NCBI GenBank assembly: GCA_037200385.1
Contig: JBBCGL010000001.1
Span: forward strand, 1,550,001 to 1,614,000
Reading direction: 5' to 3'
Length of the DNA: 64,000 nucleotides
From: Rhizomicrobium sp.
Lineage (GTDB): Bacteria > Pseudomonadota > Alphaproteobacteria > Micropepsales > Micropepsaceae
Below are positions 2,278 to 47,571 of this stretch, in pieces. Both the position numbers and the translations under genes were made by a program. The notes below the pieces were generated by a model, which saw nothing but the letters and a program-made list of their open reading frames with translations, did not search any database and had not been told where the DNA came from. How positions within the stretch are numbered: position 1 is the stretch's first letter; each line of letters begins with the position of its first letter.

Positions 2278-2297
2278 CACCTTAGCAGAAAACGATC

Positions 2298-6163: not shown

Positions 6164-6181
6164 CGTTCGCCACGCAAGGCG

Positions 6182-9449: not shown

Positions 9450-9493
9450 CACATCGACATTCGGGATGGGAGCTCATTTGCGAGCGCGGACTC

Positions 9494-9512: not shown

Positions 9513-9587
9513 AGCGGCCAAGCTACGCGGCCTTCATGACAGAATGGATACGGCTTCCGGATAAGCGATGGAAATGCGCCGCCCGTC

Positions 9588-11614: not shown

Positions 11615-11686
11615 CTCCACATCTTCAGTTCCATACGAGGTCCGAAAAGAGCACTTCAGAACCCGCGACCTTCCGGCGTGGCGCGC

Positions 11687-12826
11687 TCATTGCGCGCGCT
11701 TCAGGTCGAACGTCCGGTATTCCGTCGAGCAGGGCGGGCCGGATGCGAGGTGCAGGCGCGGCGGCTCGCCGTAATCGTAGATCAGAGATCCCGCGGTGAA
11801 GCCGATGTAACTGCCATGGGTGTCGAGATAGGTGCGCGAGACCGGGTTCTCGGGATCGTCATGCGCGCTAAGCGCCGTCTTGACCGCCGCCAGGTCGACG
11901 AAGCGCCGCAGATCGCCCAGCCGCGTGCTTATCGAAGCATAGCGTTGCCGCGAATTGCTGAAATGAACCTGCTCGTCCGGCGGCAGCGCGGCCATCAGGG
12001 CCTGGAAATCCTGCTCGTCGTCGTTGGCGAGCGCGTGATTGGTGTGGCAGACCCGGCGGCCCGCGCCGTTGCCGAAGAACTCCACCACCTTGCCGGCGGA
12101 ACATTCGAGGCAATGCACGCTGTCGCGGCTGCTCAGGATGTAATTTTGCCCCGAGGCATGCGGGACCGTGCGCAGGAATCCTAGCGCCTCCTGCGGCGAA
12201 CGGCAGGCCAGCACATGACGCACGATGAACGCGACCGGCAGGCCGTCATTCGACGCACGGAGCTGGTTGAGCGTGTTGCAGGTGATGCCCAACGGCACGT
12301 CGCTCATGCCGGCGAGGCCGATGAGACCTGCATAGGTGAAGACATAGCTCGCGGCGCCCGTCTGCGCGTCGGCGATCCGCAGCAAGACCTGATGACCGTC
12401 GATATAGCGCGGCACATCCATGTTCTGTCCGGCATAGCCGGGCTGTCCGTCCTGCGGCAGCATGCCGAACGCGCTGCACTTCTGGCGCAGGACGACGGGC
12501 CGACGATGATAGAACCCGTAAGCCCATTCCTCGTCGATCAACTGATATTGCAGCATCGTCTCGAACGGCAGGTCCGCGCCTTCGGCGATGCCGCGCACTT
12601 CCTCGAGCAGGTCCGGCGTCCATCGGGCCAGTGCTTGCTCGAACGCCCCATAAGCCCGGAAGCTGCCCAGGTATTCGTCGGGATCGGCGCCGAAATACTC
12701 GCGCAGGAACTGCTCGTGCGCCGCGATCAGCGCACGGATGTGCTCGCGCATCGCCGCGCCGTGGATCCGCCCCCGCTCCCGCGGCGTTCCCGACAATTCG
12801 ATGACCGGCAATCGGCTGGTTAGCAT
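11687..12826 (-). CDS. C45-type Ntn-hydrolase (acyltransferase/amidohydrolase family)
   Basis: A 379-residue protein of the peptidase C45 / acyl-CoA:6-aminopenicillanate acyltransferase family. N-terminal IELSGTPRERGRIHG and the segment RQKCSAFGM are characteristic; Cys117 is the predicted nucleophile exposed by autocleavage at K116-C117, followed by GQNMD, the conserved Asn region, and CNTLNQLR. Family members hydrolyse or transfer acyl groups on amides. No signal peptide is seen, so it probably acts in the cytoplasm after import by the adjacent GPH transporter. It lies 14 bp downstream of that transporter gene in the same operon. Confidence 0.85.
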   Translation of the reverse strand: MLTSRLPVIELSGTPRERGRIHGAAMREHIRALIAAHEQFLREYFGADPDEYLGSFRAYGAFEQALARWTPDLLEEVRGIAEGADLPFETMLQYQLIDEEWAYGFYHRRPVVLRQKCSAFGMLPQDGQPGYAGQNMDVPRYIDGHQVLLRIADAQTGAASYVFTYAGLIGLAGMSDVPLGITCNTLNQLRASNDGLPVAFIVRHVLACRSPQEALGFLRTVPHASGQNYILSSRDSVHCLECSAGKVVEFFGNGAGRRVCHTNHALANDDEQDFQALMAALPPDEQVHFSNSRQRYASISTRLGDLRRFVDLAAVKTALSAHDDPENPVSRTYLDTHGSYIGFTAGSLIYDYGEPPRLHLASGPPCSTEYRTFDLKRAQ

Positions 12827-12840
12827 GGATTATACCATCG

Positions 12841-14235
12841 TCAAGCTTGTGCGAGGACATTGCGAGCGTTCCGCGCGGCGCGCTGCTCGATCCGGCGACG
12901 GATGATGTCCTGGCGGCGCTCGTCGAGCGGAAAGCGCCAGAGCACCAGGCCGGCGAGCAGGAACAGCAGCGCCGGAAGCCCAATGAAGATCGCGAGAAAT
13001 CCGCTCTTCTCCATCAGATCGTTGGCGTGACCGACCTGGTAGCCGACGAGCCCCAGCAGCAGGAGAGCGACGCCGCCGCCGATCGCGAAGTTGAGTTTGG
13101 CGACCAGAGTGAGGAAGGCGAAGTAGCTGCCGCTGCGGTTCACCCCGCTGCGCAGGATCTCATAATCCACGATGTCGCCCAGCAGCGCGTATGGCACCGC
13201 CTTGGTCGCTGCTTCGCCGACGCCGTAGATCACGCCGAACACGACCATGGGCAGGAAAGCCGCCGGCCCCGGCGCAACCGCCAGCATGACAAGCTGCAGT
13301 GCCGAGACGCAGAACCAGCTGAGCGCCAGCGAGCGATGCTGCCCGAGCCGGGCGATCGCATAGTTCCATGCCGGCAGCGCCACGAGATTCGCCATGGCGT
13401 TGAAGACATAGATCGTGGTGAACCTATCGCCGATCGCCAGGTAGGAATCGACATAGATGAACAGCACCGCGTTGAAGACGCCGTTCGCGAGCCCGCCGAA
13501 GATATAAGCCACTGCGAAGATCTGTAGCGGCTTGTTCTGGCCGACCGAGCGGAACACGTCGAGCGCCGACGACCGCGCCGGCGCCACATGCTTCCCTTCC
13601 GGAATCCGCGCCAAGGCGAGAAATGTCAGCACGGGCAGCAGCACGACGACGACAAGCGCCATGACGCGCATCGTGTCGGGCCCGATCTCGCGGTCCTTGA
13701 AGACCGGCAGCAGCGATACGCCCATGAAAAGGATGGTGCCGAGCGCACCCATCACCGCGATCTGGACGGAAATGCGCGAGCGCTCGGTGTAGCTGTGGGT
13801 AAGCTCCGCGCTCCAGGCGCGGTAGGGGATTTCGAGGACGGTCCAGCCCAGATAGAGCGCCATCGACGCCGTCAGGAGATAGAGCGGGCCGGCCGATGGC
13901 GCCGGCGTGAACAGCAGGTAGATCGACACGGCCGCGATCACCGTGCCGGCGGCGATCCACGGCTTGCGCTTGCCAAAATGGCTCCTCGTGCGGTCGCTCA
14001 GATAGCCGATGCCCGGATCGATCACGGCGTCGAAGATGCGCGAGAGCAGGAAGATGCCGCCGATGGCCGACAAGGTGACGGTGGTATGCTTGGCATAGAA
14101 CCCGGGGATCACCGCACCGACCGGGATGTGCATCATCGCGATCGGCAAGGCCGGCAGCGCGAAGATCAGGATCGTCCGGAGCGAAAGACGCCCGTCGTCC
14201 TGGGATGAGCCGTTGCGGCGCGATGGCGTTGTCAC
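12841..14235 (-). CDS. GPH-family (melibiose-carrier-like) MFS symporter
   Basis: A 464-residue inner-membrane transporter with about 12 helices. The loop 2-3 motif GYLSDRTRSHFGKRKPW is diagnostic of the glycoside-pentoside-hexuronide:cation symporter family (MFS_2). The start is the GTG at 14233-14235, which overlaps the stop of the serine hydrolase gene (GTGA). Family members usually carry glycosides, but in alphaproteobacterial catabolic loci they also accompany peptidases, so the substrate here may be the product of the periplasmic serine hydrolase (inference). Confidence 0.87.
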   Translation of the reverse strand: MTTPSRRNGSSQDDGRLSLRTILIFALPALPIAMMHIPVGAVIPGFYAKHTTVTLSAIGGIFLLSRIFDAVIDPGIGYLSDRTRSHFGKRKPWIAAGTVIAAVSIYLLFTPAPSAGPLYLLTASMALYLGWTVLEIPYRAWSAELTHSYTERSRISVQIAVMGALGTILFMGVSLLPVFKDREIGPDTMRVMALVVVVLLPVLTFLALARIPEGKHVAPARSSALDVFRSVGQNKPLQIFAVAYIFGGLANGVFNAVLFIYVDSYLAIGDRFTTIYVFNAMANLVALPAWNYAIARLGQHRSLALSWFCVSALQLVMLAVAPGPAAFLPMVVFGVIYGVGEAATKAVPYALLGDIVDYEILRSGVNRSGSYFAFLTLVAKLNFAIGGGVALLLLGLVGYQVGHANDLMEKSGFLAIFIGLPALLFLLAGLVLWRFPLDERRQDIIRRRIEQRAARNARNVLAQA

Positions 14236-36047: not shown

Positions 36048-36350
36048 CTAGCCGGCGGCCGGCGTCAGATGCACCGCGCCATGCGCGGCCAGGTCGCGCA
36101 GGAACGCAACGACCTCCGCTTCGACGACGTCGCGCGGCGCGTCGTATTCGGCTTCCAGGGCATCGCAAAGCGGCGCCAGCGCCAGCGGCTCGGCCAGGAG
36201 TTCCCAGATGCGGCTGCCTGTTTCGGTCAAGCCGATATAGCGGCCCGTGCTGCCGCTCATCATGATCAGCTCGTCGCCGACCCGCGCCGTGAGCCAGCCC
36301 TCGGCGCGTGCGATCCGCGTCCGCGGCGTCAGGTCCATGTCGTCGCTCAT
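36048..36350 (-). CDS. PqqD family peptide carrier (RiPP recognition element)
   Basis: A 100-residue PqqD-like protein with a short N-terminal extension: GWLTARVGDELIMMSGSTGR forms the beta-strand part and YIGLTETGSRIWELLAEPLA the helix that follows, the classical PqqD pattern. Family members bind leader peptides of ribosomally made, modified peptides and hand them to modifying enzymes. It is the last gene of an operon with a sulfotransferase and an HprK-like kinase (4-bp overlaps), and it is the best candidate to bind the peptide encoded at 41207-41380. Confidence 0.85.
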   Translation of the reverse strand: MSDDMDLTPRTRIARAEGWLTARVGDELIMMSGSTGRYIGLTETGSRIWELLAEPLALAPLCDALEAEYDAPRDVVEAEVVAFLRDLAAHGAVHLTPAAG

Positions 36351-37243
36351 CCGCCCATTCCCCCCTGCTGCAGGAATTTATAGCCCAGCCGGCGCATCAT
36401 GGCTGCATGGTCGGCCTCGATCCGCGCGATCTGCGGCGGCGACAATTCTTCGCGCCAGGCCTCCGCCTCGCCGCGGCGGAAGAACAGGCCGCCATGAGGC
36501 GAAGTCCATTCGCGGAATCCCTTGGCGCGCTCCTGCGCCTGCAGCCGCGCGAAATCGGCGAGGCGCGCCGCCTGCCCGGCTTCGGCCGGCGTGATGTCGC
36601 GGCCCGCAAAGGCCAGCGCGGCGCGCAGAACCCCCGGCGTGTCGGCCTTGAGCGCCTCATAGCGCACGAGATGCACCGGCACATCGCTCTGGTCGAGCCA
36701 GCTCGCGACATGCGAGCTCCAGCTCAGCAGCTTCTGCCGCAGCTGGACGCCCAGCCGGCCCGAGACGCCGCCGAACACGTTGTTCTCCGAGCCCAGCGTC
36801 TCGATCGCCGCGTCGATGCTGCAGCCCAGATGGTTGGCGAGCGACGGCGCCACCGCCCGCGGATCGCGCACGATCACGATGGCCCCCTGCGCGGCGCCGA
36901 GCAGCGGCCGGCCGTCGGCGTTGCGCGTGTAGGCGTCGTGGACTTTCATGATGCGCGGCCACGGACCGTTCGCGATCTCGCGCGAGGCCGAATAGTCGCG
37001 ATAGTCGCCGCCGGCGATGGTCTCGAACACGCTGGGGCGCAGGAGATCGACCTCGTCCGGCGTCAGCAGGCTCGAATCGAGCATCGTGATGTCGTCGAAA
37101 GGGTAGCGCGCGCTCGCCACCGACATGTCCTCGTTCGGATCGTTGATGTCCGTCTCGCCCTGCCCCGCCAGGTTCGACAGCAGCAGCCGGAACCAGGTGT
37201 TGCCCGATTTGGGATAGGAGGCGAGCCAGACCAGACCGCTCAC
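36347..37243 (-). CDS. PAPS-dependent sulfotransferase
   Basis: A 298-residue cytosolic-type sulfotransferase. The phosphosulfate loop is ASYPKSGNTWFRLLL (residues 8-22 from the GTG at 37241-37243), and the 3'-phosphate region is IVIVRDPRAVAPSLANHLG. The GTG overlaps the HprK gene stop (GTGA), and the stop overlaps the PqqD start (ATGA). An ATG 11 codons upstream is possible but would overlap more. Its position between PqqD and the kinase suggests tailoring of a peptide, with the Tyr, Ser or Thr hydroxyls of the 57-residue peptide as candidate acceptors (inference). Confidence 0.87.
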   Translation of the reverse strand: MSGLVWLASYPKSGNTWFRLLLSNLAGQGETDINDPNEDMSVASARYPFDDITMLDSSLLTPDEVDLLRPSVFETIAGGDYRDYSASREIANGPWPRIMKVHDAYTRNADGRPLLGAAQGAIVIVRDPRAVAPSLANHLGCSIDAAIETLGSENNVFGGVSGRLGVQLRQKLLSWSSHVASWLDQSDVPVHLVRYEALKADTPGVLRAALAFAGRDITPAEAGQAARLADFARLQAQERAKGFREWTSPHGGLFFRRGEAEAWREELSPPQIARIEADHAAMMRRLGYKFLQQGGMGG

Positions 37244-38169
37244 CGCGCCGTCTCCAGCAATCCGAGCCGGCGCCAATGCGCCGCGAGCATGTCCGCCACC
37301 TCCGGCATCATGGCGAAATCGAGCGGCCGGGTGAGCCGGAACAGGCCCGCGTGGCGCTGCAGCGACGAGGATTCCCGGAAGAAGCGATCGGCGAGGCCCA
37401 TGATCCGCATCAGGCGCGGGCGATAGGCGTTGCGGCGCAGCAGGATCGCGGCATCGAGCGGCGAAAGCGGCTCGATGCCGCGCGCCAGCGACGGCCGCTC
37501 GCGCCGCAGCATGTAGATCGCGCCGATCGGCAGCGCGTCCTCGACCGCCGCCGACGACGGCTCGACATAGAACTTCTCCATCTGCGAGCGCACCGCCGCG
37601 CCCTTGTGCTCCGCCACGTCGAGGCGCTCCACCGCGTCGGCCCAGAGCTTCAGCATCCTGCCGTCGGGCACGATGGTGGGCCGGCCGTCGGCATCCGAGC
37701 CGAGGCAGCAGACATCGTCATTGACATGCGCGAACCCCCGCGCCCCCAGCGCCGCGGCGATGGTCGACTTGCCGGCGCCCGAGGGGCCGCAGAACAGCAC
37801 GGCTTTTCCGCTCACCGACACGGCGCTGGCATGCAGCACCATCTGCCCGCGCTGGTGCAGCAAGATCCCGAACGCGCTGCCGAGCAGGAAGATCGCGGCA
37901 TCGGCCTCGCTGGTGCCGCCTTCGGTCTCGAACAGGATCTCGCGGCCTTGCGCGATCAGGAAGCGGGCCACGCCGGGAACACGCAGCATGAAGCGGTCGT
38001 CCGTCATCGCCCAATTGGGACCGCGGTGAGAGGCCTCGCCAAGGGTGGCGGGGACCGCGCCGCGGCGCACCCGCACGTCCGGTGCCGCACCGGGGGGCGG
38101 CGCGGCGATAGCGCCCGGGAGATCGAGATCGGAGACCACGGTGTAACCGCACACCCGGTAATGATGCAT
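37240..38169 (-). CDS. HprK-related P-loop kinase
   Basis: A 309-residue protein related to the kinase domain of HPr kinase. The P-loop GPSGAGKST is at residues 128-136, preceded by LHASAVSVSGKAVLFC and followed by HVNDDVCCL (D151/D152), as in HprK-like proteins of peptide gene clusters. It lacks the N-terminal HprK sensor domain; residues 1-105 are a different lead-in. In lasso-peptide clusters such kinases phosphorylate the C-terminal Ser of the precursor (known for paeninodin-type systems). The local peptide does end in Ser. First gene of a three-gene leftward operon. Confidence 0.85.
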   Translation of the reverse strand: MHHYRVCGYTVVSDLDLPGAIAAPPPGAAPDVRVRRGAVPATLGEASHRGPNWAMTDDRFMLRVPGVARFLIAQGREILFETEGGTSEADAAIFLLGSAFGILLHQRGQMVLHASAVSVSGKAVLFCGPSGAGKSTIAAALGARGFAHVNDDVCCLGSDADGRPTIVPDGRMLKLWADAVERLDVAEHKGAAVRSQMEKFYVEPSSAAVEDALPIGAIYMLRRERPSLARGIEPLSPLDAAILLRRNAYRPRLMRIMGLADRFFRESSSLQRHAGLFRLTRPLDFAMMPEVADMLAAHWRRLGLLETAR

Positions 38170-38284
38170 GCCGCCTTTGCCTTGTCCCCAACGTGTTTGG
38201 GCTAAACGAACCTTGCCATATTTACAAGTTGCGCGTGGACGGCGAAAATTCGGCGCAGATGTCGAAGCGGTAATCGGGGCTGTA

Positions 38285-38578
38285 ATGCAGGCTTATTCCT
38301 ATGAGTTCTTTGCGGGCCATCTGCGCGAAATCTTCTCGATCGCGCTGGGCGAATCGTCGGTCGACATGACCCTGGTCGAGGCCCGGCGGCGGCCGCCGCG
38401 GGTGGTCGCGGGCCTGCGGGCCGAGCCTTTTACGCTCTATTTCAAATGCGCCAATCCGATCCTGCTGCCGCAGAAGACCTACCCGTTCACCAACCCGGGG
38501 ACCGGCAAGCTCGACATCTTCATCGTGCCGATCGGGCGCGAGCGCGACGGCGTCGTATACGAGGCGATCTTCAACTAA
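38285..38578 (+). CDS. DUF6916 family protein
   Basis: A 97-residue protein from ATG 38285 (an earlier in-frame start at 38168 would overlap the kinase start region). It begins SYEFFAGHLREIF and contains GLRAEPFTLYFKCANPILLP then TYPFTNPGTGKLDIFIVPIG, a compact all-beta pattern I associate with DUF6916. Members are typically found next to tail-collar proteins; the function is unknown. It is divergent from the kinase-sulfotransferase-PqqD operon with a 115-bp shared control region and convergent with the acetyltransferase gene. Confidence 0.75.
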   Translation: MQAYSYEFFAGHLREIFSIALGESSVDMTLVEARRRPPRVVAGLRAEPFTLYFKCANPILLPQKTYPFTNPGTGKLDIFIVPIGRERDGVVYEAIFN

Positions 38579-38594
38579 GCGCGATCCGGTCGGA

Positions 38595-39107
38595 TCACGG
38601 CCCGGCCTTCCACACCATCGCGGCATGGAGCCCGCCCGGCTCGAGGTTGCCGTCTTCCACGAAGCCCAGGCGCTCATAGAGCCGGCGCGCCGGGTTGCCG
38701 AACTCGACCTGGAGCACGAAGGTCCTGGCGCCGGCGTCCTTCAGCGAAGCCTGGACCCAGCGCAGCAGCCCCTCTCCCAGCCCGCGGCCGCGGAAGGGCG
38801 GCAGGAAACCGATATCGATGAGCGACCATTCGCTCGGGCCACGGTCCAGGATCAGCCGGCCGATGGGCGTGCCATGCTGCGCGATCACCAGGAAGTCCGC
38901 CTTCGGATAGAAGCGGCGGAAATGGAGGTCCTGGAGGCGGAACTGGTCGTCGAGAAAAGGCTCGCGCTGGGCCTCCGGCCATTGCGCCAGGGCGGCCGCA
39001 TCCATGCGCAGCGTGGCGAACAGGGCGCGCAGGAAGGGCTGGTCGCGCTTCCTGGACGGGCGCAGCGCGATGCCGTCGCGCGTCAGGCGTTCAGGCAGCG
39101 CAAGCAT
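38595..39107 (-). CDS. GNAT family N-acetyltransferase
   Basis: About 170 residues from ATG 39107; in-frame ATGs at 39134 and 39167 lie inside a palindromic repeat and are less likely. The acetyl-CoA loop is PPFRGRGLGEGLLRWV, preceded by LIDIGFLP and followed by LQVEFGNPARRLYERLGFV, a complete GNAT core. Substrate unknown. It is downstream of the three tail-collar genes on the same strand, with a REP-like palindrome in the gap, so it may be expressed with them at a reduced level. Confidence 0.88.
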   Translation of the reverse strand: MLALPERLTRDGIALRPSRKRDQPFLRALFATLRMDAAALAQWPEAQREPFLDDQFRLQDLHFRRFYPKADFLVIAQHGTPIGRLILDRGPSEWSLIDIGFLPPFRGRGLGEGLLRWVQASLKDAGARTFVLQVEFGNPARRLYERLGFVEDGNLEPGGLHAAMVWKAGP

Positions 39108-39127
39108 GGCGATCCCGCAAAACGATG

Positions 39128-39165
39128 GGAGCATGACCCGATTCCATGGGGTCGGATCATGCTCC
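39128..39165. repeat. REP-like palindrome
   Basis: Arms GGAGCATGACCCGA and TCGGATCATGCTCC (14 nt, one mismatch) around a 10-nt loop, followed by CAAAAC. The GAGCATGATCC core is a well-known dispersed alphaproteobacterial palindrome. It lies between the tail-collar operon and the acetyltransferase gene. Confidence 0.7.
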
Positions 39166-39203
39166 AAAACCGGCGCCCGTGGCGCGCTTTTGCGGACCCG
39201 CGG

Positions 39204-39737
39204 CTAGTTGCGCGACGGGAAGATGCCGTAGAGCGCGATGCAATAGTTCATGCCCAGGATCGGCTGCTCGTTCTCATGCGGCTGGCTGCCGCCGCTGGGC
39301 TGCAGGGCATTGACCCCCAGCGTGTTGCCCGTCGGGGTCGGCGCGAAGATCCTGCCGGGCTGGCCGCGGTCGCCGAACCAGCCGTTCTGCGTCGGCACCA
39401 GGCCGTAATCCGTGGTGGCGCCGGGCTGGGTGCCATAGACCAGATGGTTGTGCTGCGGCAACTGGCTCTGGCTCAGCGTCACCGAGGTCTGGCCCGAGGT
39501 CTGGCCCAGGTCGTAGTTCGACAGGCTCGGCCCCTGGCCCCAGCTCATCACGGAGCGGTCCATCAGGTTCGGCAGGGAGAAGGTCGTCACCCCGTTGCCG
39601 CCATAGGTGGTCCCGATGATCGAGAACAGCGCCTCGTTCTGCGAGATCGCGATCTGCTGGCCCTGGCAGAACGCGAAATTGATCGGCGCGAAGTTGAAGC
39701 CGTAAAGCATGACCTGACCGATATACTGCATCGACAT
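39204..39737 (-). CDS. Tail-collar domain protein 1
   Basis: A 177-residue protein with the phage tail collar (Collar) fold used by microcystin-dependent-protein-like (MdpB) family members: QVMLYGFNFAPINFAFCQGQ at the N-terminus, GTTYGGNGVTTFSLPNLMDR in the middle and a C-terminal GMNYCIALYGIFPSRN. There is no signal peptide. It is the third of three tandem paralogues, 32 bp behind the second. The central ~70 residues differ strongly from the paralogues. Other tail genes (tube, sheath, baseplate) are absent, so this is not a recognisable prophage or tailocin. Confidence 0.88.
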   Translation of the reverse strand: MSMQYIGQVMLYGFNFAPINFAFCQGQQIAISQNEALFSIIGTTYGGNGVTTFSLPNLMDRSVMSWGQGPSLSNYDLGQTSGQTSVTLSQSQLPQHNHLVYGTQPGATTDYGLVPTQNGWFGDRGQPGRIFAPTPTGNTLGVNALQPSGGSQPHENEQPILGMNYCIALYGIFPSRN

Positions 39738-39769
39738 AGTTTTGGTCTCCCGCGAGGGGTTGAATTGGA

Positions 39770-40312
39770 TTAGTTGCGGCTCGGGAAGATGCCCGACAGC
39801 GCGACGATGTAGGTGAGCGCCATCGCGGGCATGCGGTTCTCGTGCGGCAGGTTGTTGCCGGTGAAGCCGACCGCGCTCGCCGAGAACTGGATCGGGGAGC
39901 CGGTCTGCTTGCCGTTCGCGATCCAGTAGCCCGTCCAGGGCGGGTTCGCGAGCGTCGCGGGATAATTGCCCTGCGGCGTGTTCACGTTCGCCGTGCCGAC
40001 CGTTGTCGCGGTCGGCGGATGGTTGTGCATCGGCATCTGCTGGGTCGTCAGCGTCACCGCCTCCGTGCCCTGCTGCTCACCCATGGTCCAGTTCTGCAGG
40101 CCCGGACCCTGGCCCTGGCCGACCGCGAGACGGCCGCGCAGATCCGGCAGTCCGAACGTCGTCGTGCCGTTGCCGCCGTAATAGGTGCCGTAGAGCGAGA
40201 ATAGCGCGCTGTTCTGCTGGATGCTGATGATCTGGCCCCAGGCCATCGCATTGTTCTTGGGTGCGAAGTTGCCCGCAAACATCCGGACTTCGCCGAGATA
40301 GGGATTGGTCAT
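39770..40312 (-). CDS. Tail-collar domain protein 2
   Basis: A 180-residue paralogue: EVRMFAGNFAPKNNAMAWGQ, GTYYGGNGTTTFGLPDLRGR and a C-terminal ALTYIVALSGIFPSRN. An AAAGAGGAAA ribosome binding site precedes the ATG. The variable middle is rich in Asn, Thr and Pro (PMHNHPPTATTVG). It is the middle gene of the three-gene tandem, 23 bp behind the first. MdpB-like triplets of this kind are common in bacterial genomes, but their function is unsettled; host-attachment or extracellular fibre roles are guesses. Confidence 0.88.
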   Translation of the reverse strand: MTNPYLGEVRMFAGNFAPKNNAMAWGQIISIQQNSALFSLYGTYYGGNGTTTFGLPDLRGRLAVGQGQGPGLQNWTMGEQQGTEAVTLTTQQMPMHNHPPTATTVGTANVNTPQGNYPATLANPPWTGYWIANGKQTGSPIQFSASAVGFTGNNLPHENRMPAMALTYIVALSGIFPSRN

Positions 40313-40335
40313 GTGTGGTTTCCTCTTTCCAGGCG

Positions 40336-40857
40336 CTAATTACGGGCCGGATAATAGCCGGTGGTCGCGATACAGAAGTTCAGACCGAGACTCGGCTGGA
40401 TGTTGTTGTGAGCCTGACTGCCGCCGGCCACGCTGCACTGCTGCGGGTTGAGGACGACGTTCGGCCCGGTCGCGAAATAGAAGTTCTCCGCGGCGCCCGT
40501 CTTGCCGTTGACCGGCGCGGCGAACACGCCGTCCTGCAGGCCCGCCTGGGTGCCCGGGCTGTTGTTCGCCATGAACGCATGCGAGTGATACGGCATCTCG
40601 GTGATCAGGAGCGTCACGCTCTCCGTGCCGGTCATCTCGCCCATCGACGTCAGCTGACCGAACGCCATCGGCGTGCGGCCGCGCAGGTCCGGCAGGCCGA
40701 AGGTCGTCTGGCCGTTGCCGCCATAGGTCGTGCCCAGCAGCGAATAGAGCGCCGTGTTCTGCGCCAGCGGGATGATGTCTCCCTTGGCAAGCGCCCAGCC
40801 GCGCGGATTGAAGTTGAACCCGTAAATGCCGATCTGGCCCAGGTAATAGTTGGTCAT
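40336..40857 (-). CDS. Tail-collar domain protein 3
   Basis: A 173-residue paralogue and first gene of the tandem: QIGIYGFNFNPRGWALAKGD, GTTYGGNGQTTFGLPDLRGR and C-terminal GLNFCIATTGYYPARN. A GAGGAG ribosome binding site lies a few bases upstream of ATG 40857. The shared pattern with the other two (collar signature conserved, middle diverged) points to duplication followed by specialisation. The promoter is in the AT-rich gap shared with the putative peptide gene. Confidence 0.88.
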   Translation of the reverse strand: MTNYYLGQIGIYGFNFNPRGWALAKGDIIPLAQNTALYSLLGTTYGGNGQTTFGLPDLRGRTPMAFGQLTSMGEMTGTESVTLLITEMPYHSHAFMANNSPGTQAGLQDGVFAAPVNGKTGAAENFYFATGPNVVLNPQQCSVAGGSQAHNNIQPSLGLNFCIATTGYYPARN

Positions 40858-41206
40858 GAGAACTCCTCAAGAGAGGGGAAGTAGACAGGAGGGATTCCGG
40901 CGTTTCGCCAGAGAATAGGAATCGACAGCACGAGAAACTTAACTAGCGAGTCGCGATTGTTCAAATGAATTGTTAGAACAGCCGAAGTACATTTTGGAAT
41001 GATAAAATCGTTGTGGTTGCGCGCCCAGATATCGCAATACCAAGAGGCGATTTCGCGTGTGCGAAAACTACGTGACGCAAATGGTACGCCGCCGCCGAAC
41101 CGCACTGCATGGCGGTTGTGATCGCGGAGGAAGTTCGGTACCATCCTGACGGTGCGTCCGGCGTGTGCTAAAGCCGGTTCCTGATCGATTCTACAGCGGG
41201 GATGGT
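40858..41206. promoter_or_regulatory. AT-rich divergent control region
   Basis: 349 bp between the tail-collar operon and the peptide gene, clearly lower in GC than its surroundings, as expected for promoters or for acquired DNA. It contains direct repeats ATTGTT about 13 bp apart within a TGTTC...GAACA frame (about 40957-40980). A 96-codon leftward frame across it looks spurious. I see no RNA gene in it. Confidence 0.4.
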
Positions 41207-41380
41207 ATGAACGGCGCCGGTAAGTCTCGGGAAATCAAAGACATTGCGTCCGGTGGCGCGGTGCAGCGCAAGCCGTGGTTGACGCCGCGCGTCGTGCACG
41301 GCACGGGGCTGGAGGATTCCGCCAACTCCTACCAGTTGCACCAGGACTCCAACCCACATGCTTCCAACGACGCGTCCTAA
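41207..41380 (+). CDS. Putative RiPP precursor peptide
   Basis: A 57-residue peptide from ATG 41207 with a GGGG-type ribosome binding site just upstream (an in-frame GTG at 41165 lacks one). Residues 22-29 read KPWLTPRV, close to the aromatic-xx-Pro-x-hydrophobic leader motif that lasso and related leaders present to PqqD-like proteins, followed by a GTG turn at 32-34. The rest, rich in Asn, Asp, Ser, His and Gln with one Tyr (Y42), ends in Ser57. No canonical lasso core (T at -2, then D/E at 7-9) is obvious, although D47 could close a 7-9-residue ring if cleavage falls after residues 38-40. It is immediately followed, in the same frame, by the asparagine-synthetase-like gene. Precursor status is inference. 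Confidence 0.6.
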   Translation: MNGAGKSREIKDIASGGAVQRKPWLTPRVVHGTGLEDSANSYQLHQDSNPHASNDAS

Positions 41381-41401
41381 GCCCTGAGCGCATTTGCCGG
41401 G

Positions 41402-43324
41402 TTGATCCGCTTCACCGGTCCGCCGGTGGGCGTGCGCGATGTCGAGCGTCTGGCGCGCGGCCTTCCCGCATTCGATGGATTGCGTGAGACCCAGTGGTCA
41501 TCGCCCCGCGCCGCCCTCGTCCATCGCCTCTTCGTCATCACGCCGGAGGACCGGCTTGAGCGCCAGCCGCTGAGTGGTCACGGCCGAGACAGCCGTTTCG
41601 TCTTCGCCGGCCGGCTCGACAACCGCGAGGAGATTGCCGCCGCGCTCGGCGTCGGCGCCGCGACATTGCGCGAAACCCCGGACGGCGCACTCTGCCTGAT
41701 GGCCTTCGAGCGCTTCGGGCCCGAAGCCGCCCCGCGCCTGGAAGGCGGCTTTGCGTTCGCCCTATGGAACGACACGCAACGGACTCTGCTGCTCGGACGC
41801 GACAAGATGGGCGGGCGGCCGCTCTTCTACCACTGCGGCGACGGCTTCCTCGCCTTCGCGACGAGCTTCAACGCGCTCTTCATGCTGCCGCAAATCCCGC
41901 GCGCGCTGGACGAGACCGTGCTCGGCGACATCCTCGCCCTCAACATGTTCGAGCAGAGCCGCACGATCTATCGCGGCGTGCTGCGCGTGCCCTCCGGCAG
42001 CCTCGCGCAGTGCGACGCGAACGGCATCCGCGTATCGTCCTATTGGACGCCGCGGCGCCGCGACCTGGGCCTGAAGCGGCATGCGGACTATGTCGAGGCC
42101 GCGCGCGAACACCTCGACCGCGCCGTGGCGCCGATGCTGCGCAGCGAGCGGCCCGTCGCGGTGCAATGCAGCGCGGGGCTCGACTCTCCGGCGGTGGCCG
42201 CAACGGCGGCGCGGCTGCTGGCGCCGCGGCATCTCACCGTCATCGCGCGCGTGCCGCCCGCGGCGCTGCGCCGGCCCGACAACGACCGGCAGTGTTTCGA
42301 CGAGGGCCCCGGGGTGCGCGCCCTGGCCGCGATGCACCCCAATATCGACCTGGTCGAGGCGGACGACGCCGATCTGCATGCGGTCGACCTCAATCCCGCG
42401 CTGCGTTTCGCGATCAACGGCATGCCGGTGTTCAACCCGCTCAACCATGGCTGGCTCTCCGCCACCATCGACCGGGCCGTGGCGGGCGGCCATCGCGTCC
42501 TGCTGGATGGGCTCTGGGGGAATTTCACCCTCACCTGGGGCGCCAACAGCAGCCTGCACTGGCACCTGCTGCACGGCGCGCCGCTCACCTTCCTGCGCGA
42601 GCTCCACGCCAATTGGCGGGTCAGCGGCCGGCCGTTCCACAAGGTCCTGCGCCACCGCCTGCTGCGGCGCCTGGAGCCCGAAGCGTTGCGCGCCTGGCGG
42701 CGGCGGCGGCGCGGCTTGGGCGTGGGGCTTGAGCATGGCGGCTTCGTCGCGCCCGACTTCCTCGCCGCGCACGACCTCAAGGCGCGGATCCGGGAGATCG
42801 GCGGCTGGCAGGAAGGGCGCACCGATGCCGATCCCTTCGCCGCGCGGGTCAAATGGCTGGTGCGCAGCAACGAGATCGGGCTGGACTGGACCGGCCAGGC
42901 ACCGGCCTTCATGGGACTCGAGAAACGCAGCCCACTGGGCGATCCGCGCCTGATCGAGTTCTGCCTCAACGTGCCCGAGGAGCATTATCTGCGCGGCGGC
43001 TGGCCACGCGCGCTGGCGCGCGATGCGCTGGCCGACCGCCTGCCGCCGCAGATCCTGCGCAACCAGAAGGCCGGCATCCAGACGCCCGAATGGTTCGCGC
43101 GCCTGAAGCTGCAGCGCGGCGCGATCGAGGCGGACATCGCGCGCATCGCCGCCTCGCCGCTGGCCTCGCGCCTGATCGATCTCAAGCGCCTGCGCGCCGC
43201 GATGGCCGACTGGCCGGAGGATGCGGACGCCGCAGAACCGCGCAAGGCCGAGCTCGCCGCCGGCCTGACGCGCGCGGTGCACATCGGACGCTTCGTCTGC
43301 TGGTTCGAAGGCGGCAACGCCTAG
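41402..43324 (+). CDS. Asparagine-synthetase-like (lasso-cyclase-type) enzyme without glutaminase Cys
   Basis: A 640-residue protein from TTG 41402, 21 nt and in the same frame after the peptide stop, so translation is probably coupled. The N-terminal ~190 residues keep the class II amidotransferase fold (FAGRLDNREEIAAALG, FGFALWN-type FAFALWNDTQR, LLLGRDKMGGRPLFY) but residue 2 is Ile, not the catalytic Cys, so glutamine hydrolysis is not expected. The synthetase half has the ATP-pyrophosphatase motif CSAGLDS (256-262). This is the profile of macrolactam-forming lasso cyclases, which adenylate a side-chain carboxylate. The stop codon is the IS target duplication. Confidence 0.85.
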   Translation: MIRFTGPPVGVRDVERLARGLPAFDGLRETQWSSPRAALVHRLFVITPEDRLERQPLSGHGRDSRFVFAGRLDNREEIAAALGVGAATLRETPDGALCLMAFERFGPEAAPRLEGGFAFALWNDTQRTLLLGRDKMGGRPLFYHCGDGFLAFATSFNALFMLPQIPRALDETVLGDILALNMFEQSRTIYRGVLRVPSGSLAQCDANGIRVSSYWTPRRRDLGLKRHADYVEAAREHLDRAVAPMLRSERPVAVQCSAGLDSPAVAATAARLLAPRHLTVIARVPPAALRRPDNDRQCFDEGPGVRALAAMHPNIDLVEADDADLHAVDLNPALRFAINGMPVFNPLNHGWLSATIDRAVAGGHRVLLDGLWGNFTLTWGANSSLHWHLLHGAPLTFLRELHANWRVSGRPFHKVLRHRLLRRLEPEALRAWRRRRRGLGVGLEHGGFVAPDFLAAHDLKARIREIGGWQEGRTDADPFAARVKWLVRSNEIGLDWTGQAPAFMGLEKRSPLGDPRLIEFCLNVPEEHYLRGGWPRALARDALADRLPPQILRNQKAGIQTPEWFARLKLQRGAIEADIARIAASPLASRLIDLKRLRAAMADWPEDADAAEPRKAELAAGLTRAVHIGRFVCWFEGGNA

Positions 43325-43635
43325 CAGGCTGTTGAAGAAGTCTTTTGCCGACGGGCGATGAAGGGGATGTCGTCGCCGTTTTGGAGGGAGATTTCGCCTT
43401 CGAGGGAGTCGTCGGTTTTGATCTCGGCCCATCCCTCGCCGGAAGCTTCGTCCATTTCGTCGTTTCCTGACCATTCGAACTCGATGGCATCGCTTGCGCA
43501 GGCGCCCTGGAAGGAACCGGTGAGGCAATCCAGGGCGAACTCGCCCCCATCCTTATCGAACAGGATGTAGGAGCCCGGCCCGGCCATGTCATATCCCGGC
43601 GTCTCGACGACGCGCCATTTGCCCTTCAGCGTCAT
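43321..43635 (-). CDS. IS passenger protein, unknown function
   Basis: A 104-residue acidic protein whose ATG (43633-43635) overlaps the transposase stop (ATGA). It starts MTLKGKWRVVETPGYDMAGP and is rich in Asp, Glu and Gly; no family is recognised by me beyond its repeated association with such transposases. The last six codons and the stop run through the IS terminal repeat and into the target duplication, so its C-terminus depends on the insertion site. Confidence 0.65.
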   Translation of the reverse strand: MTLKGKWRVVETPGYDMAGPGSYILFDKDGGEFALDCLTGSFQGACASDAIEFEWSGNDEMDEASGEGWAEIKTDDSLEGEISLQNGDDIPFIARRQKTSSTAC

Positions 43636-44817
43636 GCCGGCACCGCCAGGAGTTTGGGCAGGCGGATGAGGTTGTAGGCGGACAAGGCCATGACGAAGGT
43701 GGCATTGACACGCGCCAGCCCACGGACCTTGACCTTGGCCAAGCCGGCCGATGCCTTGATCCAACCGAACACCTCTTCGATGCGCTTGCGGCAGACTTGG
43801 CTCACGGCATAACCGCAATGGCGCAGCGTCCGGTTGTCGATGGCCGTCTTGCGCGGCTTGCCGGTCTTGCTCAAATGCCCATCGATGGCGACGTGCGGCG
43901 TGATCGCGCGCGCCCTAAGCGCCTCGACGAAGGCCTCCACGTCATAGGCCTTGTCGGCGCCTAGCGTGATCCGCCGTCGTCGCCGGGGACGATGGCGATC
44001 CACCAGCGTCAGCGCTTGGTCCCGTTCGGCCATGCCGTTGGCTTGGCTCGCCTGGCCTAAGACCGCCAGGCCGTGGCGGTTCTCCATCAGCGCATGCCCC
44101 ATGTAGCAGAGCTTGGCCGGCTGGCCATCGCCCTTCTTGTAGAGCTTGGCCTCAGGATCGGTCGTGCTCTCATGGGTCTCGTTGGAGCGTTTCTCCTTGT
44201 GGAAGCTGCGCTCGGCGTTGCGGCCCGGACCATCCTGGTCGTTGTCGGCGCCGTCCTTCCTGCGGAAGCTCTTGAGCGAAGCCCACGCCTCGATCAGCGT
44301 CCCATCCACCGAGAAGTGCTCGCTCGACAGAAGCCGCTTCACTCGAGGCTGAGCCAGGATCGCGTTCAGGAACTTGGCCGCGATGTCACCTTGAAGCAGC
44401 CGATCCCGGTTCTTCGAGAACACCGAGTGGTCCCATGCCGGATCATCCACCCCAAGCCCGACGAACCAGCGGAACAGAAGGTCAAACTCTATCCGTTCCA
44501 TCAGCAGCCGCTCCGAGCGCACACCGTAGAACGCCTGCAACAGCGTCGCCCGCAACAGCTTCTCCGGCGCGATCGAGGGACGGCCAAAGTCCGTGTAGAG
44601 CTCGTCGAAGTCCTTCGACAGATCCATCAACGCCGCGTTCGCAATTTCCCGGATCACCCGCAGAGGATGGTCATGGCGAACCCGGGACTCCAAATCCACG
44701 TAACTGAACAGCGCCCCGGACCGCTCGTCGCTTCCACGCATCGTCCATCCCTCGGCCGACCCGCCCAAAGGGAATCACGATCCCAAACGCGCCGCCAGAG
44801 ACTTCTTCAACAGCCTG
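43325..44817 (-). mobile_element. IS5-family insertion sequence with passenger gene
   Basis: A 1493-bp element bounded by perfect inverted repeats starting CAGGCTGTTGAAGAAGTCT (43325-43343 and 44799-44817). CTAG flanks both ends (43321-43324 and 44818-44821), a 4-bp duplication fitting the YTAR target of the IS5 subgroup. It carries a transposase and a small overlapping gene. Intact ends and frame suggest a recent, potentially active copy. The pre-insertion site would read directly from the end of the asparagine-synthetase-like gene into the REP-like palindromes. Confidence 0.92.
43632..44741 (-). CDS. IS5-family transposase
   Basis: A 369-residue DDE transposase starting at ATG 44741 with a GAGGGA ribosome binding site. 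The N-terminal DUF772-like part (DFDELYTDFGRPSIAPEKLL, LLMERIEFDLLFRWFVGL) precedes the catalytic core: FSVDGTLIEAWAS (first Asp), TLGADKAYD (second Asp) and RKRIEEVFGWIKASAGL (Glu). The frame is intact. It lies between perfect inverted repeats with the passenger gene overlapping its stop codon. Confidence 0.93.
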   Translation of the reverse strand: MRGSDERSGALFSYVDLESRVRHDHPLRVIREIANAALMDLSKDFDELYTDFGRPSIAPEKLLRATLLQAFYGVRSERLLMERIEFDLLFRWFVGLGVDDPAWDHSVFSKNRDRLLQGDIAAKFLNAILAQPRVKRLLSSEHFSVDGTLIEAWASLKSFRRKDGADNDQDGPGRNAERSFHKEKRSNETHESTTDPEAKLYKKGDGQPAKLCYMGHALMENRHGLAVLGQASQANGMAERDQALTLVDRHRPRRRRRITLGADKAYDVEAFVEALRARAITPHVAIDGHLSKTGKPRKTAIDNRTLRHCGYAVSQVCRKRIEEVFGWIKASAGLAKVKVRGLARVNATFVMALSAYNLIRLPKLLAVPA

Positions 44818-44822
44818 CTAGA

Positions 44823-44883: not shown

Positions 44884-44920
44884 GAGCGGATCACCGATTC
44901 CGTGAAACGGTGATCCGCTC
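44884..44920. repeat. REP-like palindrome overlapping the Stf0 gene end
   Basis: Arms GAGCGGATCACCG and CGGTGATCCGCTC, perfect over 13 bp with an 11-nt loop. Its last base is the first base of the Stf0 sulfotransferase stop codon (read leftward), so the element may have defined or shortened the end of that gene. Confidence 0.7.
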
Positions 44921-45741
44921 TAAGGGACGCCGCGGGCGTGGAAATCGCGCAGGAAGCGTTCGGTGAGCGCGGCAATTGCCGCGTCATCGCCCTGCTTGTG
45001 GAGGCGCGGCGGGACGACGGGCGCGTCCGCACGCCCGAGGGCATCGAGCAGGCGGCGGATGGCGGCTTGGTAGTCCTGTTCCATATCCTCGTAGACGATC
45101 TCGTGCGGCACGAGGGCGTTGGCGGCGAAGAAATTCCGCCAATGGGCGTTGCTGCGCAGGATGCGGCGGTGCAGACCGAGGATCGCGTCGAAATCGTAAG
45201 GCGGCGGCGGCGCGTCGCGCGCCGAGAGCCGCCGCCAGCCGCCGGTCCGCCAGGCCGCGTAGTTCGAGATCGCCTGCCGCACCGTGTCGCGGCGGTGCAG
45301 GAAGAGGAATTCCGCATGCGGCAGACGCGGCGCGATGTGTGCGAAGAGACCGCGATAGAAATCCGCCGGCGTGGCGGCGGGACGCATGCGGTCTTCATCC
45401 GCGACGTTGTCGGGCGCGATCTCTTCCGCCAGGGCGACGAGATCGCGCCAGAACAGCTTGATCGACAAGACGCCGGACGGATCGGTGCGGCGGCGCCACA
45501 GATTCGCGACATAGCCGTCGAGCTCCGAGGCCTGCCAGCGCGCCTGGAACGCGGGACGAAACCCCTCGTGGAAATACTCGAGCGGACAGCCGAGGCCGCG
45601 CGCGAAGGTGAGGGCCTCGCCGAGCAGCGTGCTGCCGGAGCGCTGCTGGGTGCAGAGGACGAGACAGCGGCGCGGTGGGCCCGTCCAATCCGGATAATCG
45701 GCCGACGCCAGCGTGAGATCGTAGACCTCAGCCCGCGCCAC
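44920..45741 (-). CDS. Stf0-family sulfotransferase
   Basis: A 273-residue PAPS-dependent enzyme. CLVLCTQQRSGSTLLGEAL (phosphosulfate loop, residues 26-44) followed by GCPLEYFHEG is the signature of the Stf0 (trehalose 2-sulfotransferase) family; FLFLHRRDTVRQAISNY is the 3'-phosphate site. Its start overlaps the upstream sulfotransferase gene by 14 bp, so the two are co-translated. The substrate could be a sugar or another hydroxyl compound; family membership alone does not fix it. Confidence 0.87.
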   Translation of the reverse strand: MARAEVYDLTLASADYPDWTGPPRRCLVLCTQQRSGSTLLGEALTFARGLGCPLEYFHEGFRPAFQARWQASELDGYVANLWRRRTDPSGVLSIKLFWRDLVALAEEIAPDNVADEDRMRPAATPADFYRGLFAHIAPRLPHAEFLFLHRRDTVRQAISNYAAWRTGGWRRLSARDAPPPPYDFDAILGLHRRILRSNAHWRNFFAANALVPHEIVYEDMEQDYQAAIRRLLDALGRADAPVVPPRLHKQGDDAAIAALTERFLRDFHARGVP

Positions 45742-46927
45742 GGAGCCGCTCCAGCTCGCGATAGACCGGCATCATATGCGCCTGGGCATGGGCGCGCAGC
45801 GCGGCGTCGATCACTTCCGCCTTGGCCGCCTCCCGCGTCTCGAACGGTATGCCCGGCGTTTTCGCGTGGAACCGCGTCAGCACGCTCATCGCGGCGCGGA
45901 CCTCGTCGCCGACCGTCACCCCGAAATGCGGCAGGATTTTCGTGAACACCGCATCCGGCAGCTCGCGATAATTCACCAGCAGCCCGCCACCCGCCTTGAA
46001 CGGCTCCAGCACCGCCGTGCAGGTCGCCGCCAGCAGCTTGGCGCAATAGATCGTCGAGTCCTCCGCATCCTCGTCGCGGAGGCCATAGACCGCGGGCGGC
46101 ATGAATTCGGGCAGCGTCTGCATCCCGCGCTCCAGCACCTGCGAGGCCAGCACCTCGACCGGCTCGCGATAGATGAAGACCCAGGGCACATCCGGAAACG
46201 CCTTGGTCAGCAGCGGCAGCGCCATGCTGTGCCAGCTGTCCGTCTTGAAGATCACCCGCTCCTGCCCCGGCACGCGCTTCTGCCCCAGCACGCCCGCCAT
46301 GGCGCGCAGCAGCGCGATATGCACATCCTCGCTGAGCCCCTGCACCATGCGGTCGAGCTGCAGTACGGAGTCGAACGGCGCCGCTTCCGACAGCACCAGG
46401 TTGCGCGGCTCGGCCGCCAGCATCTGCGACACCAGCGTCGAGCCGCAGCGCGACATGTGGAAGATGAAGGCCGCCGGCGTCAGCACCGGCAGCTGCGCCG
46501 TCAATCCCGGCAGATTGCCCAGCAGCGTGCGCGTCGGCATCATCCGCGACAACGGCCGTCCCAGTGCATAGCGGATCGAGGCTTCATAGAACGGGTCGTC
46601 GAACGGCCTTGCCCCGAACCAGGCCCAGTCGACGCAGACCTGACCGTACATCGGAGCGACGGAGACCGGCAGCCAGCCCGGCGGCGGCACGTCCAGCGTC
46701 GGCGGCCCGCCTGTGTAGCGTTCCATCCCCACCGGCGCCGGGCGCAGCGCGTCGCGCAGCGCTTCGGTGCTCAGCGAGAAGCCGAGCGCCTGTGCCCGCG
46801 GCACCGCGACGGGCAGGAACGATGTGAGCTCCTCGAAACCGGCGAATTCCGCCTGCAGCGCGGGATCGGCGCGCACCGCCGCGAAAAATGCCTGGACCGC
46901 GTCCGCCTCTGTGCCTGCTTCGCTCAT
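45728..46927 (-). CDS. Sulfotransferase with N-terminal Nif11-like domain
   Basis: A 399-residue protein from ATG 46925-46927. Residues ~8-62 (AVQAFFAAVRADPALQAEF ... ALGFSLSTEALRDAL) have the two-helix layout of Nif11-type leader domains, seen at the N-terminus of certain RiPP precursors and here fused to an enzyme. The sulfotransferase part has its phosphosulfate loop FIFHMSRCGSTLVSQML (residues 154-170) and a 3'-phosphate segment WVFIYREPVEVLASQVL. It is divergent from the beta-hydroxylase gene (44 bp) and overlaps the Stf0 gene. The Nif11 assignment is by eye. Confidence 0.8.
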   Translation of the reverse strand: MSEAGTEADAVQAFFAAVRADPALQAEFAGFEELTSFLPVAVPRAQALGFSLSTEALRDALRPAPVGMERYTGGPPTLDVPPPGWLPVSVAPMYGQVCVDWAWFGARPFDDPFYEASIRYALGRPLSRMMPTRTLLGNLPGLTAQLPVLTPAAFIFHMSRCGSTLVSQMLAAEPRNLVLSEAAPFDSVLQLDRMVQGLSEDVHIALLRAMAGVLGQKRVPGQERVIFKTDSWHSMALPLLTKAFPDVPWVFIYREPVEVLASQVLERGMQTLPEFMPPAVYGLRDEDAEDSTIYCAKLLAATCTAVLEPFKAGGGLLVNYRELPDAVFTKILPHFGVTVGDEVRAAMSVLTRFHAKTPGIPFETREAAKAEVIDAALRAHAQAHMMPVYRELERLRGAG

Positions 46928-46971: not shown

Positions 46972-47571
46972 ATGAGTTTACCAGACCGCCTGCGCCTGCC
47001 TTTCGCGTTCGACGCGCAGGCGCTCGAGCGCGACCTGGCGGGCCTTGCCGGCGACGAATGGATCGCGCATTTCGTCCAGCAGAACTATGACGGCGACTGG
47101 AGCGTGCTGCCCCTGCGCGGCACCAAGGGCGCGAGCCATCCGGTGATGCAGATCTATTCCGACCCCAACGCGACCGAATTCGAGGACACCGCCTTCCTCG
47201 CCCGCTGTCCCTACTTCCAAGACGTGCTGTCGCGCTTCCGCTGCGAACTTTTATCCGTGCGCCTGATGCGCCTGACGCCCGGCTCCACGATCAAGGAGCA
47301 TCGCGACCTCGATCTCGACGCCGACAGCGGCACGGTCCGCATCCATATTCCCGTGACGACCAATCCCGGCGTGGTGTTCGAGCTCAACCGCCGCCGCGTG
47401 CTGCTCGAGCCCGGCAGCGCCTGGTATCTGCGGCTCTCCGATCCCCATCGCGTCGCGAACACCGGCGCCACCGACCGCGTGCATCTGGTGATCGACGCGG
47501 CAGTGAACGGCTGGCTGCACGACCTGCTCGCGCGCGCCTCTCAGGATTCGGCGGCCGCGGCCGGCGCATAG
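46972..47571 (+). CDS. Aspartyl/asparaginyl beta-hydroxylase family protein
   Basis: A 199-residue AspH-type Fe(II)/2-oxoglutarate oxygenase from ATG 46972. LMRLTPGSTIKEHRDLDLD holds the first metal His (H110), IHIPVTTNPGVVFELN the core strands, and LSDPHRVANTG the second His (H159); R169 in TDRVHLVID suits 2-oxoglutarate binding. Members hydroxylate Asp or Asn in peptides, or free amino-acid-like substrates. It is divergent from the Nif11-sulfotransferase gene and its 3' end overlaps the MFS gene by 31 bp. Asn/Asp-rich local peptide makes it a candidate tailoring enzyme (inference). Confidence 0.85.
   Translation: MSLPDRLRLPFAFDAQALERDLAGLAGDEWIAHFVQQNYDGDWSVLPLRGTKGASHPVMQIYSDPNATEFEDTAFLARCPYFQDVLSRFRCELLSVRLMRLTPGSTIKEHRDLDLDADSGTVRIHIPVTTNPGVVFELNRRRVLLEPGSAWYLRLSDPHRVANTGATDRVHLVIDAAVNGWLHDLLARASQDSAAAAGA

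Follow-up and report, generated by a model that had tools for sequence, protein, structure and literature searches.

What kind of product is encoded by a locus that combines a PqqD-like protein, an HprK-like kinase, a sulfotransferase, a small peptide and an asparagine-synthetase-like enzyme with a GNAT acetyltransferase and Collar-domain proteins? All of these genes lie where the first-pass annotation of this DNA (64,000 nucleotides from Rhizomicrobium sp., hereafter the window) had placed them. That annotation saw a kinship with kinase-type lasso clusters, which the cyclase, B1 and kinase assignments support, and suggested a new RiPP class. The gene set recurs in relatives and is more than a chance grouping. 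The cluster most likely represents a kinase-type lasso-peptide pathway, whose product, a small knotted peptide of the lasso type, would carry phosphate and probably also sulfate. The full proposal, a lasso pathway with a dedicated collar accessory module, is advanced with high confidence.

The gene at 41402..43324 (plus strand) encodes a predicted lasso cyclase (C) of the asparagine-synthetase family, with PF00733 and PF13537 domains and the PP-loop CSAGLDSP. Its best NCBIfam match is the lasso cyclase model NF033535 (E 1.2e-75), although the score of 255 bits is below the cut-off of 525, as are those of the cyclases in the B2-bearing loci L016 and L017 (328 and 279 of 525 bits). Read from its TTG start, which is uncertain, the enzyme has no Cys at position 2, in agreement with the first-pass annotation. 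This glutaminase-dead site is not a special feature, because Cys occupies position 2 in none of 40 relatives and only in the AsnB-like L021. Of the 40 sequences, 23 show the usual start motif; the called starts of the other 17 and of the window have no such motif and are uncertain. The cyclase of a sister locus, L023, is 51% identical to that of the window. A scan of genome contigs with the single cyclase gave one locus.

The small peptide of 57 residues encoded just upstream (41207..41380, plus strand; a start at 41165 is also possible) is very probably the lasso precursor (A), as judged by translation, a motif scan and a core test over relatives. Its leader contains RKPWLTPRVV, in which W-L-T-P-R-V fits the pattern Y/W-x-x-P-x-hydrophobic. 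The proposed cut, DSA|N, would release the core NSYQLHQDSNPHASNDAS, which ends in Ser, as in kinase-type clusters, and has Asp8 within the expected Asp/Glu range of positions 7-9, given a cut that was itself picked to fit. The strict T(-2) rule is broken, because Ser rather than Thr is situated at -2. Thr(-2) is not universal, however, since Ile(-2) is described for a lasso precursor in the available part of PMC10368454. The precursor of L023 is of textbook form, with T(-2), Asp at position 8 and the core start VSSQIGTD. Among 46 candidate precursors, which were filtered for a last residue of S, T or A and include a few chance-like frames (L026 6495, L042 8572), 25 combine T(-2) with Asp/Glu at 7-9, against a mean of 4.3 (sd 1.9, maximum 14) in 2000 shuffles. 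The same combination is found in 11 of 13 later candidates (shuffle mean 1.57, maximum 6), these being 12 of 15 listed frames plus L063; the frames L069 5326, L074 15233 and L078 8437 were dropped as unlike precursors and, counted as misses, give 11/16. C-terminal Ser is present in 37 of 45 candidates with a basic residue before the motif, a set in which the last residue was unfiltered. Because the parts are those of lasso peptides (a lasso-type precursor, B1/PqqD, the cyclase and, in L023, B2) and the core signature is far above the shuffles, a new RiPP class is unsupported; rather than being unlike every known class, the precursors bear the lasso signature.

A candidate precursor is present in 35 of 41 cyclase-bearing loci. 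We also examined 18 further kinase-match loci, comprising all kinase matches beyond the earlier loci except two. No cyclase was seen in 15 of them, some of which stop at contig ends. In eight of these 15 (L079, L080, L085, L086, L089, L090, L091 and L093) neither the strict nor the looser scan found a precursor; six of the eight have both kinase and sulfotransferase, and L079 and L091 (the latter ending at a contig end) have PqqD in addition. The looser scan gave one frame in L081 and two in L083, all chance-like by eye, and L092, a kinase fragment, was left out. Peptide and cyclase therefore travel together, and kinase-sulfotransferase pairs also stand alone. Loci with PqqD, kinase and sulfotransferase but neither peptide nor cyclase had been named beforehand as evidence against the proposed cluster, and L079 and L091 fit that description; the absence of a conserved leader, named likewise, was not found, the leaders of the candidate precursors being conserved.

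The B1 component, a PqqD-like RRE protein (36048..36350, minus strand), matches PF05402 with 64.9 bits (cut-off 23.4). Its best NCBIfam match, the lasso PqqD model NF033536, is below cut-off, as that model is in B2-bearing loci too. The putative precursor kinase K (37240..38169, minus strand; best match TIGR04352, E 2e-9, below its cut-off) has the His, GPSGAGKS and Asp-Asp motifs of the HprK-like kinases, the list of motifs (His, P-loop, Asp-Asp) being taken from the available text of PMC10368454, and is 49% identical to the kinase of L023. Between the two genes is a PAPS-type sulfotransferase (36347..37243, or to 37276 from a longer TTG start, minus strand; PF00685, 66.8 bits, cut-off 22) with a YPKSGNTW loop. 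Paeninodin/SyanA-type clusters (PadeK, ThcoK, SyanK) resemble the window in the C-terminal Ser of the precursor, the HprK-like kinase, the split B1 and the lasso cyclase. By comparison, the window has no local B2 or ABC exporter, has W in place of Y in the leader motif, and adds the collar module, a second sulfotransferase and an Asp hydroxylase-like gene. In the parts available of PMC9266682 and PMC8498205, the target of characterised lasso kinases is the C-terminal Ser of the precursor. In Bradymonas BsfA/BsfK (PMC10368454, available part), the kinase likewise works with B1 on a precursor and a residue other than Thr, namely Ile, is accepted at -2, but the kinase modifies Ser3 and not the C-terminus; the word sulfotransferase is absent from that text. 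Some paeninodin/SyanA-type clusters are noted to include a putative gene for a sulfotransferase (PMC8498205, PMC4289311, available parts). No description of a sulfated lasso peptide was found in the available text of the literature searched, and the words sulfotransferase and sulfat- do not occur in that of a review of lasso modifications (PMC9266682).

In the proposed pathway, the PqqD-like protein would hold the leader of the 57-residue precursor through the W-x-x-P-x-V motif, the kinase would phosphorylate the C-terminal Ser, and the sulfotransferase would put a sulfate on a precursor hydroxyl (Ser or Tyr). A B2 peptidase from another genomic locus would cut after Ser(-2)-Ala(-1), and the cyclase would activate Asp8 and join it to Asn1; the resulting lasso would have 18 residues, eight of them in the ring, and would end in a modified Ser. 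The genes and motifs, the way they recur, and the missing B2 at a place where L023 has one are seen directly in the sequences. Phosphorylation, leader cutting and cyclization are proposed by analogy with characterised relatives; we infer sulfation, its site and the supply of B2 in trans.

The lack of B2 was correctly reported: none is encoded in the 64-kb window (best chance match E 0.05), and no ABC exporter is within 8 kb of the cyclase. The sister locus L023 does have a B2 (NF033537, 86.5 bits, cut-off 33), 56% identical to that of L017 and adjacent to a gene taken, from its size and place, for an MFS gene. The genome of the window contains two B2 genes (by Pfam and our own alignment) against nine full-length lasso-type cyclases. 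Since the window has no B2 and the genome has two for nine cyclases, B2 may act in trans, as one of the enzymes common to scattered lasso loci of one genome. Supply in trans is the version used in the main proposal and seems somewhat more probable than its opposite. Two sister loci in one genome (G028), L023 for the window and L030 for L011, each have a B2, and another genome (G039) splits cyclase and precursor (L025), kinase, sulfotransferase and PqqD (L079), and collars, B2 and ABC (L058) over three places. However, these three places may be unrelated and need not form one system, because L035 and L047 are further lasso loci in G039, and loci that have no B2 may be decaying. Among the 17 cyclase genes linked to collars, 7 have no B2 in the surrounding 8 kb, and the same is true of 22 of the other 34, some of these loci ending at contig ends. 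The numbers of B2 and cyclase genes suggest that many loci may share lasso enzymes, and cluster-by-cluster mining could mistake enzyme-sharing loci for orphans or for new classes, a misreading made in the first-pass annotation.

The unexpected element is a lasso locus repeatedly packaged with three phage-tail-collar-like genes. In operon order, the Collar-domain proteins are encoded at 40336..40857, 39770..40312 and 39204..39737 (minus strand; PF07484, 84, 79 and 82 bits); the module also has the GNAT acetyltransferase (38595..39107 or 39167, minus strand; PF00583) and a DUF6916 protein (38285..38578, plus strand; PF21880, 83.9 bits). The DUF6916 gene was absent from the earlier gene list. This module adjoins 17 of 51 cyclase genes, with GNAT in 15/17 collar loci and 0/34 others and DUF6916 in 12/17 and 0/34; the genes of relatives were identified with our own codon-usage caller and phmmer labels, so that these counts may miss genes, and some loci end at contig ends (e.g. 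L028, L084, L085, L090, L091). The kinase is present in all 17 collar loci, that of L046 having been overlooked by the gene caller and recovered by tblastn, with which L046, L031 and L058 were rechecked. The order of the Collar proteins is kept in 13 of 16 loci, and an ABC exporter is found in 4 of the 17. The loci with the collar partner come from seven family codes, all within a single class, and from one MAG (L022). Cyclases are undercounted in the 289-genome sample, which overlaps the first 100 genomes, because scoring was limited to four candidates in each genome (the cyclases of L068 and L071 either escaped it or were sub-threshold). All three proteins share the phage tail collar domain, here in a bacterial triplet with GNAT and DUF6916. 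A collar structure predicted from a six-row alignment had a mean pLDDT of 33, too low for a comparison of folds. Searches of the literature, made largely outside subscription papers, found no report pairing a lasso peptide with a tail collar and no papers for tail collar with RiPP, for DUF6916, or for tail collar with microcystin dependent protein.

The three Collar proteins, GNAT and DUF6916 would form a module serving the lasso peptide. We infer that the Collar proteins probably make a heterotrimer and that the module most likely serves the peptide as a surface or export partner. More tentatively, the triplet might form a bacterial heterotrimer akin to phage tail fibres, either secreted or placed at the cell surface, that would carry or display the phosphorylated and sulfated lasso peptide or act as its receiver, the peptide being a working part of an appendage rather than a free antibiotic and its enzymes being shared in trans. 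Most lasso peptides have, to our knowledge, no established role in nature, and a conserved protein partner could be a handle on this question. Alternatively, the collar module and the lasso genes might be neighbours merely through carriage in the same islands. Collar triplets do occur apart from lasso genes, beside cadherin-like giants, L061 and L063 have collars but no cyclase called within their 20 kb, and genome size and kinship confound co-occurrence at the genome level. On a quick cyclase tree of 42 rows, however, the association changed at least seven times. In addition, the gene set is conserved, and the collars diverge in step with the cyclase to about the same degree as the kinase; mere co-carriage is considered rather unlikely.

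A decaying locus, which lost B2, gained an insertion sequence and no longer makes its product, is unlikely. B2 is missing where L023 has one, and a recent insertion sequence sits at the cyclase stop codon (43321..44821, minus strand), with 28-bp inverted ends beginning CTAG, a transposase (43632-44741 or 44768) and a small ORF (43321-43635). Against decay, the insertion sequence has broken neither the reading frame of the cyclase nor its stop codon, the other frames are open, and the kinase and sulfotransferase motifs are intact. A leader-retaining variant, in which phosphate and sulfate would be added to the uncut precursor without B2 and the cyclase would form a lactam without leader removal or none at all, would suit the missing B2, here and near many other cyclase genes, and the absence of T(-2), but it is improbable given that B2-free loci such as L014, L025, L042 and L046 keep the cut-site signature of B2-bearing ones and that two B2 genes are still in the genome.

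The insertion sequence has eight near-identical copies in the genome, that of the window included. It is unsupported as the cause of the B2 loss, because it is situated at the cyclase stop whereas the B2 of L023 lies beyond the hydroxylase. Past it are a third sulfotransferase of Stf0 type (44920..45741, minus strand; PF09037), which is not recurrent (1/17 collar loci, 1/34 others), a second of Sulfotransfer_3 type (45728..46927, minus strand; PF13469; 8/17 against 3/34) and an aspartyl/asparaginyl beta-hydroxylase-like gene (46972..47571, plus strand; PF05118; 6/17 against 0/34). Much of this enzyme set reappears in Pontixanthobacter and relatives, where the available part of a table of gene clusters co-occurring with salt tolerance, given there without interpretation, has B2, nucleotidyltransferase, sulfotransferase, Asp beta-hydroxylase, sulfotransferase, PqqD and asparagine synthase under neighbouring cluster numbers, a numbering that suggests adjacency (PMC10040529).

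The window, bases 1550001-1614000 of a 5.0-Mb genome in a single contig, carries between its positions 36048 and 43324 genes for PqqD, a sulfotransferase, an HprK-like kinase, DUF6916, a GNAT protein, three phage tail collar proteins (Collar, PF07484), a 57-aa peptide and a lasso-type cyclase. The PqqD, HprK-like kinase, sulfotransferase, small peptide and asparagine-synthetase-like cyclase of the first-pass annotation are all found in this interval. Downstream of the cyclase lies an insertion sequence (43321-44821), whose 8 near-identical copies in the genome indicate recent activity, followed by two further sulfotransferases and an Asp/Asn hydroxylase-like gene. This is a kinase-type lasso-peptide locus with sulfotransferases, joined to a recurrent collar module (three Collar proteins, GNAT and DUF6916).

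The kinase retains the His, GPSGAGKS and Asp-Asp residues, which are listed for lasso kinases in excerpts of PMC10368454. Characterized lasso kinases target the C-terminal Ser of the precursor, according to portions of PMC9266682 and PMC8498205, and one targets Ser3 instead (PMC10368454, in part). The sulfotransferase retains YPKSGNTW; sulfotransferase genes within lasso clusters have already been noticed, and the passages of PMC8498205 and PMC4289311 that treat them describe no sulfated lasso product. The cyclase as read does lack the N-terminal Cys, as reported earlier, yet so do 40 of 40 relatives; among the proteins compared, Cys at position 2 is present only in the AsnB-like L021.

The window peptide reads MNGAGKSREIKDIASGGAVQ-RKPWLTPRVVHGTGLEDSA up to the proposed cleavage point and NSYQLHQDSNPHASNDAS beyond it. 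A scan for aromatic-x-x-P motifs in short reading frames up to 3 kb from 43 cyclase genes (41 loci) gave a candidate precursor in 35 of the 41 loci and 46 distinct peptides overall. Of the 46, 25 carry a strict signature (Thr at -2, 14-16 leader residues past the aromatic residue and Asp/Glu at core 7-9); 2000 tail shuffles gave 4.3 on average (sd 1.9) and 14 at most. Among later candidates the signature occurs in 11 of 13 (shuffles: mean 1.57, sd 1.15, maximum 6), or 11 of 16 if three dropped frames are entered as misses. The window peptide has Asp at 8 and fails the signature through Ser at -2; the peptide of its sister locus L023, RKPWVRPQAEFSEIRATN followed by VSSQIGTD, satisfies it, and the two cyclases are 51% identical. 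A HRIGADEAETGIQFGPEILILLS stretch is identical among the precursors of lasso loci L011, L030 and L034, from three genomes, despite differing leader starts.

The reported lack of a visible B2 leader peptidase extends to the whole window, where no B2, fragments included, was found. In L023, B2 lies directly past the hydroxylase gene (NF033537, 86.5 bits where the cut-off is 33). L011 likewise has no B2, and its relatives L030 and L034 have one. The window's own genome has two B2 genes, found by Pfam and by an alignment of ten B2 proteins, and nine full-length lasso-type cyclases, a tenth, partial match at 2615270 being L021. Genome G039 distributes such genes over three places, namely precursor and cyclase (L025), kinase, sulfotransferase and PqqD (L079), and collars, GNAT, DUF6916, B2, ABC, sulfotransferase and a kinase-like gene without P-loop (L058), and carries further lasso loci. 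The simplest reading, and the most likely one, is a putative supply of B2 to the window locus in trans. Two lasso loci of the window's genome, L015 and L016 (G000:C1:4205000-4237000), lie about 11 kb apart with B2 in only one; their close relatives adjoin each other in G029 (L032).

At least two collars lie within 8 kb of 17 of 51 cyclase genes; the remaining 34 have none. GNAT accompanies 15/17 collar-linked cyclase genes against 0/34 others, DUF6916 12/17 against 0/34, and Asp hydroxylase 6/17 against 0/34. The corresponding counts were also taken for the second sulfotransferase (8/17, 3/34), the first (14/17, 13/34), PqqD (15/17, 24/34), B2 (10/17, 12/34) and ABC (4/17, 2/34). Five collar-linked loci (L067-L071) had been chosen on the basis of their collars; once these are set aside, both GNAT and DUF6916 stand at 10/12 against 0/34. 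The three-collar order is identical in 13 of 16 loci. Literature searches on lasso peptides, tail collar and DUF6916 found no earlier paper on the link.

With cyclases called per genome at E 1e-40 and 500 residues, 100 relatives comprise 13 with both cyclase and collar triplet, 1 with cyclase only, 5 with triplet only and 81 with neither (Fisher 2e-11; at E 1e-30, 13, 2, 5 and 80, 1e-10), and a 289-genome class sample comprises 10, 4, 4 and 271 (1e-12; at E 1e-30, 10, 7, 4 and 268, 2e-11); these counts were taken from the lists by hand, some genomes belong to both samples, and neither kinship nor genome size is corrected for in the tests. A quick tree was built from 42 cyclases, of which 12 have collars. 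On it the collar label must change 7 times, and branches with SH-aLRT of at least 95 force every one of these changes; even so, its clustering exceeds that of shuffled labels, which need 10.6 changes on average (5/500 as low). Across 13-16 of the 17 collar loci, L069 excluded, pairwise cyclase distances correlate with those of collars (r 0.45-0.51), kinase (0.42) and sulfotransferase (0.50) (Mantel p 0.0005-0.0035), a correlation that stems partly from species kinship.

Other observations speak against a tight unit. By hand count the 100 relatives hold 22 collar triplets, 11 of them no more than 10 kb from a full-length cyclase gene and the other half without one nearby. Five cyclase-free triplets (L053-L057) adjoin proteins of 1796-2291 aa, with cadherin, Ig and RTX domains in the two scanned (L053, L057), as well as a weak GNAT match and small genes, DUF6916 being confirmed in L053; the collar module therefore also exists without lasso genes. 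Among 18 additional kinase loci, 3 have a cyclase match (L087, L088, L096) and 15 have none. Neither scan found a precursor at 8 of these 15 (L079, L080, L085, L086, L089, L090, L091, L093). Others combine a kinase with candidate precursors and lack a cyclase. L095 (G091:C6:45000-64900), for instance, has three tandem lasso-like precursors (7592-8710) adjoining kinase and sulfotransferase, and its 20 kb contain no cyclase match; L084, which ends close to a contig end, has one candidate precursor and a kinase, and no cyclase.

Elsewhere in the window's genome, L013 (G000:C1:67000-86000) holds a lasso-type cyclase and precursor (1071-8812) beside tryptophan-halogenase-like (by eye) and TonB-receptor-like genes; neither kinase nor PqqD nor B2 lies within 8 kb. 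The lasso loci L017 and L018 adjoin genes resembling, by eye, type II secretion genes and pseudopilins. Three PqqD-like genes and a radical-SAM-like gene (by eye) in L020 (G000:C1:4662000-4681000, 7236-13402) may represent another RiPP locus.
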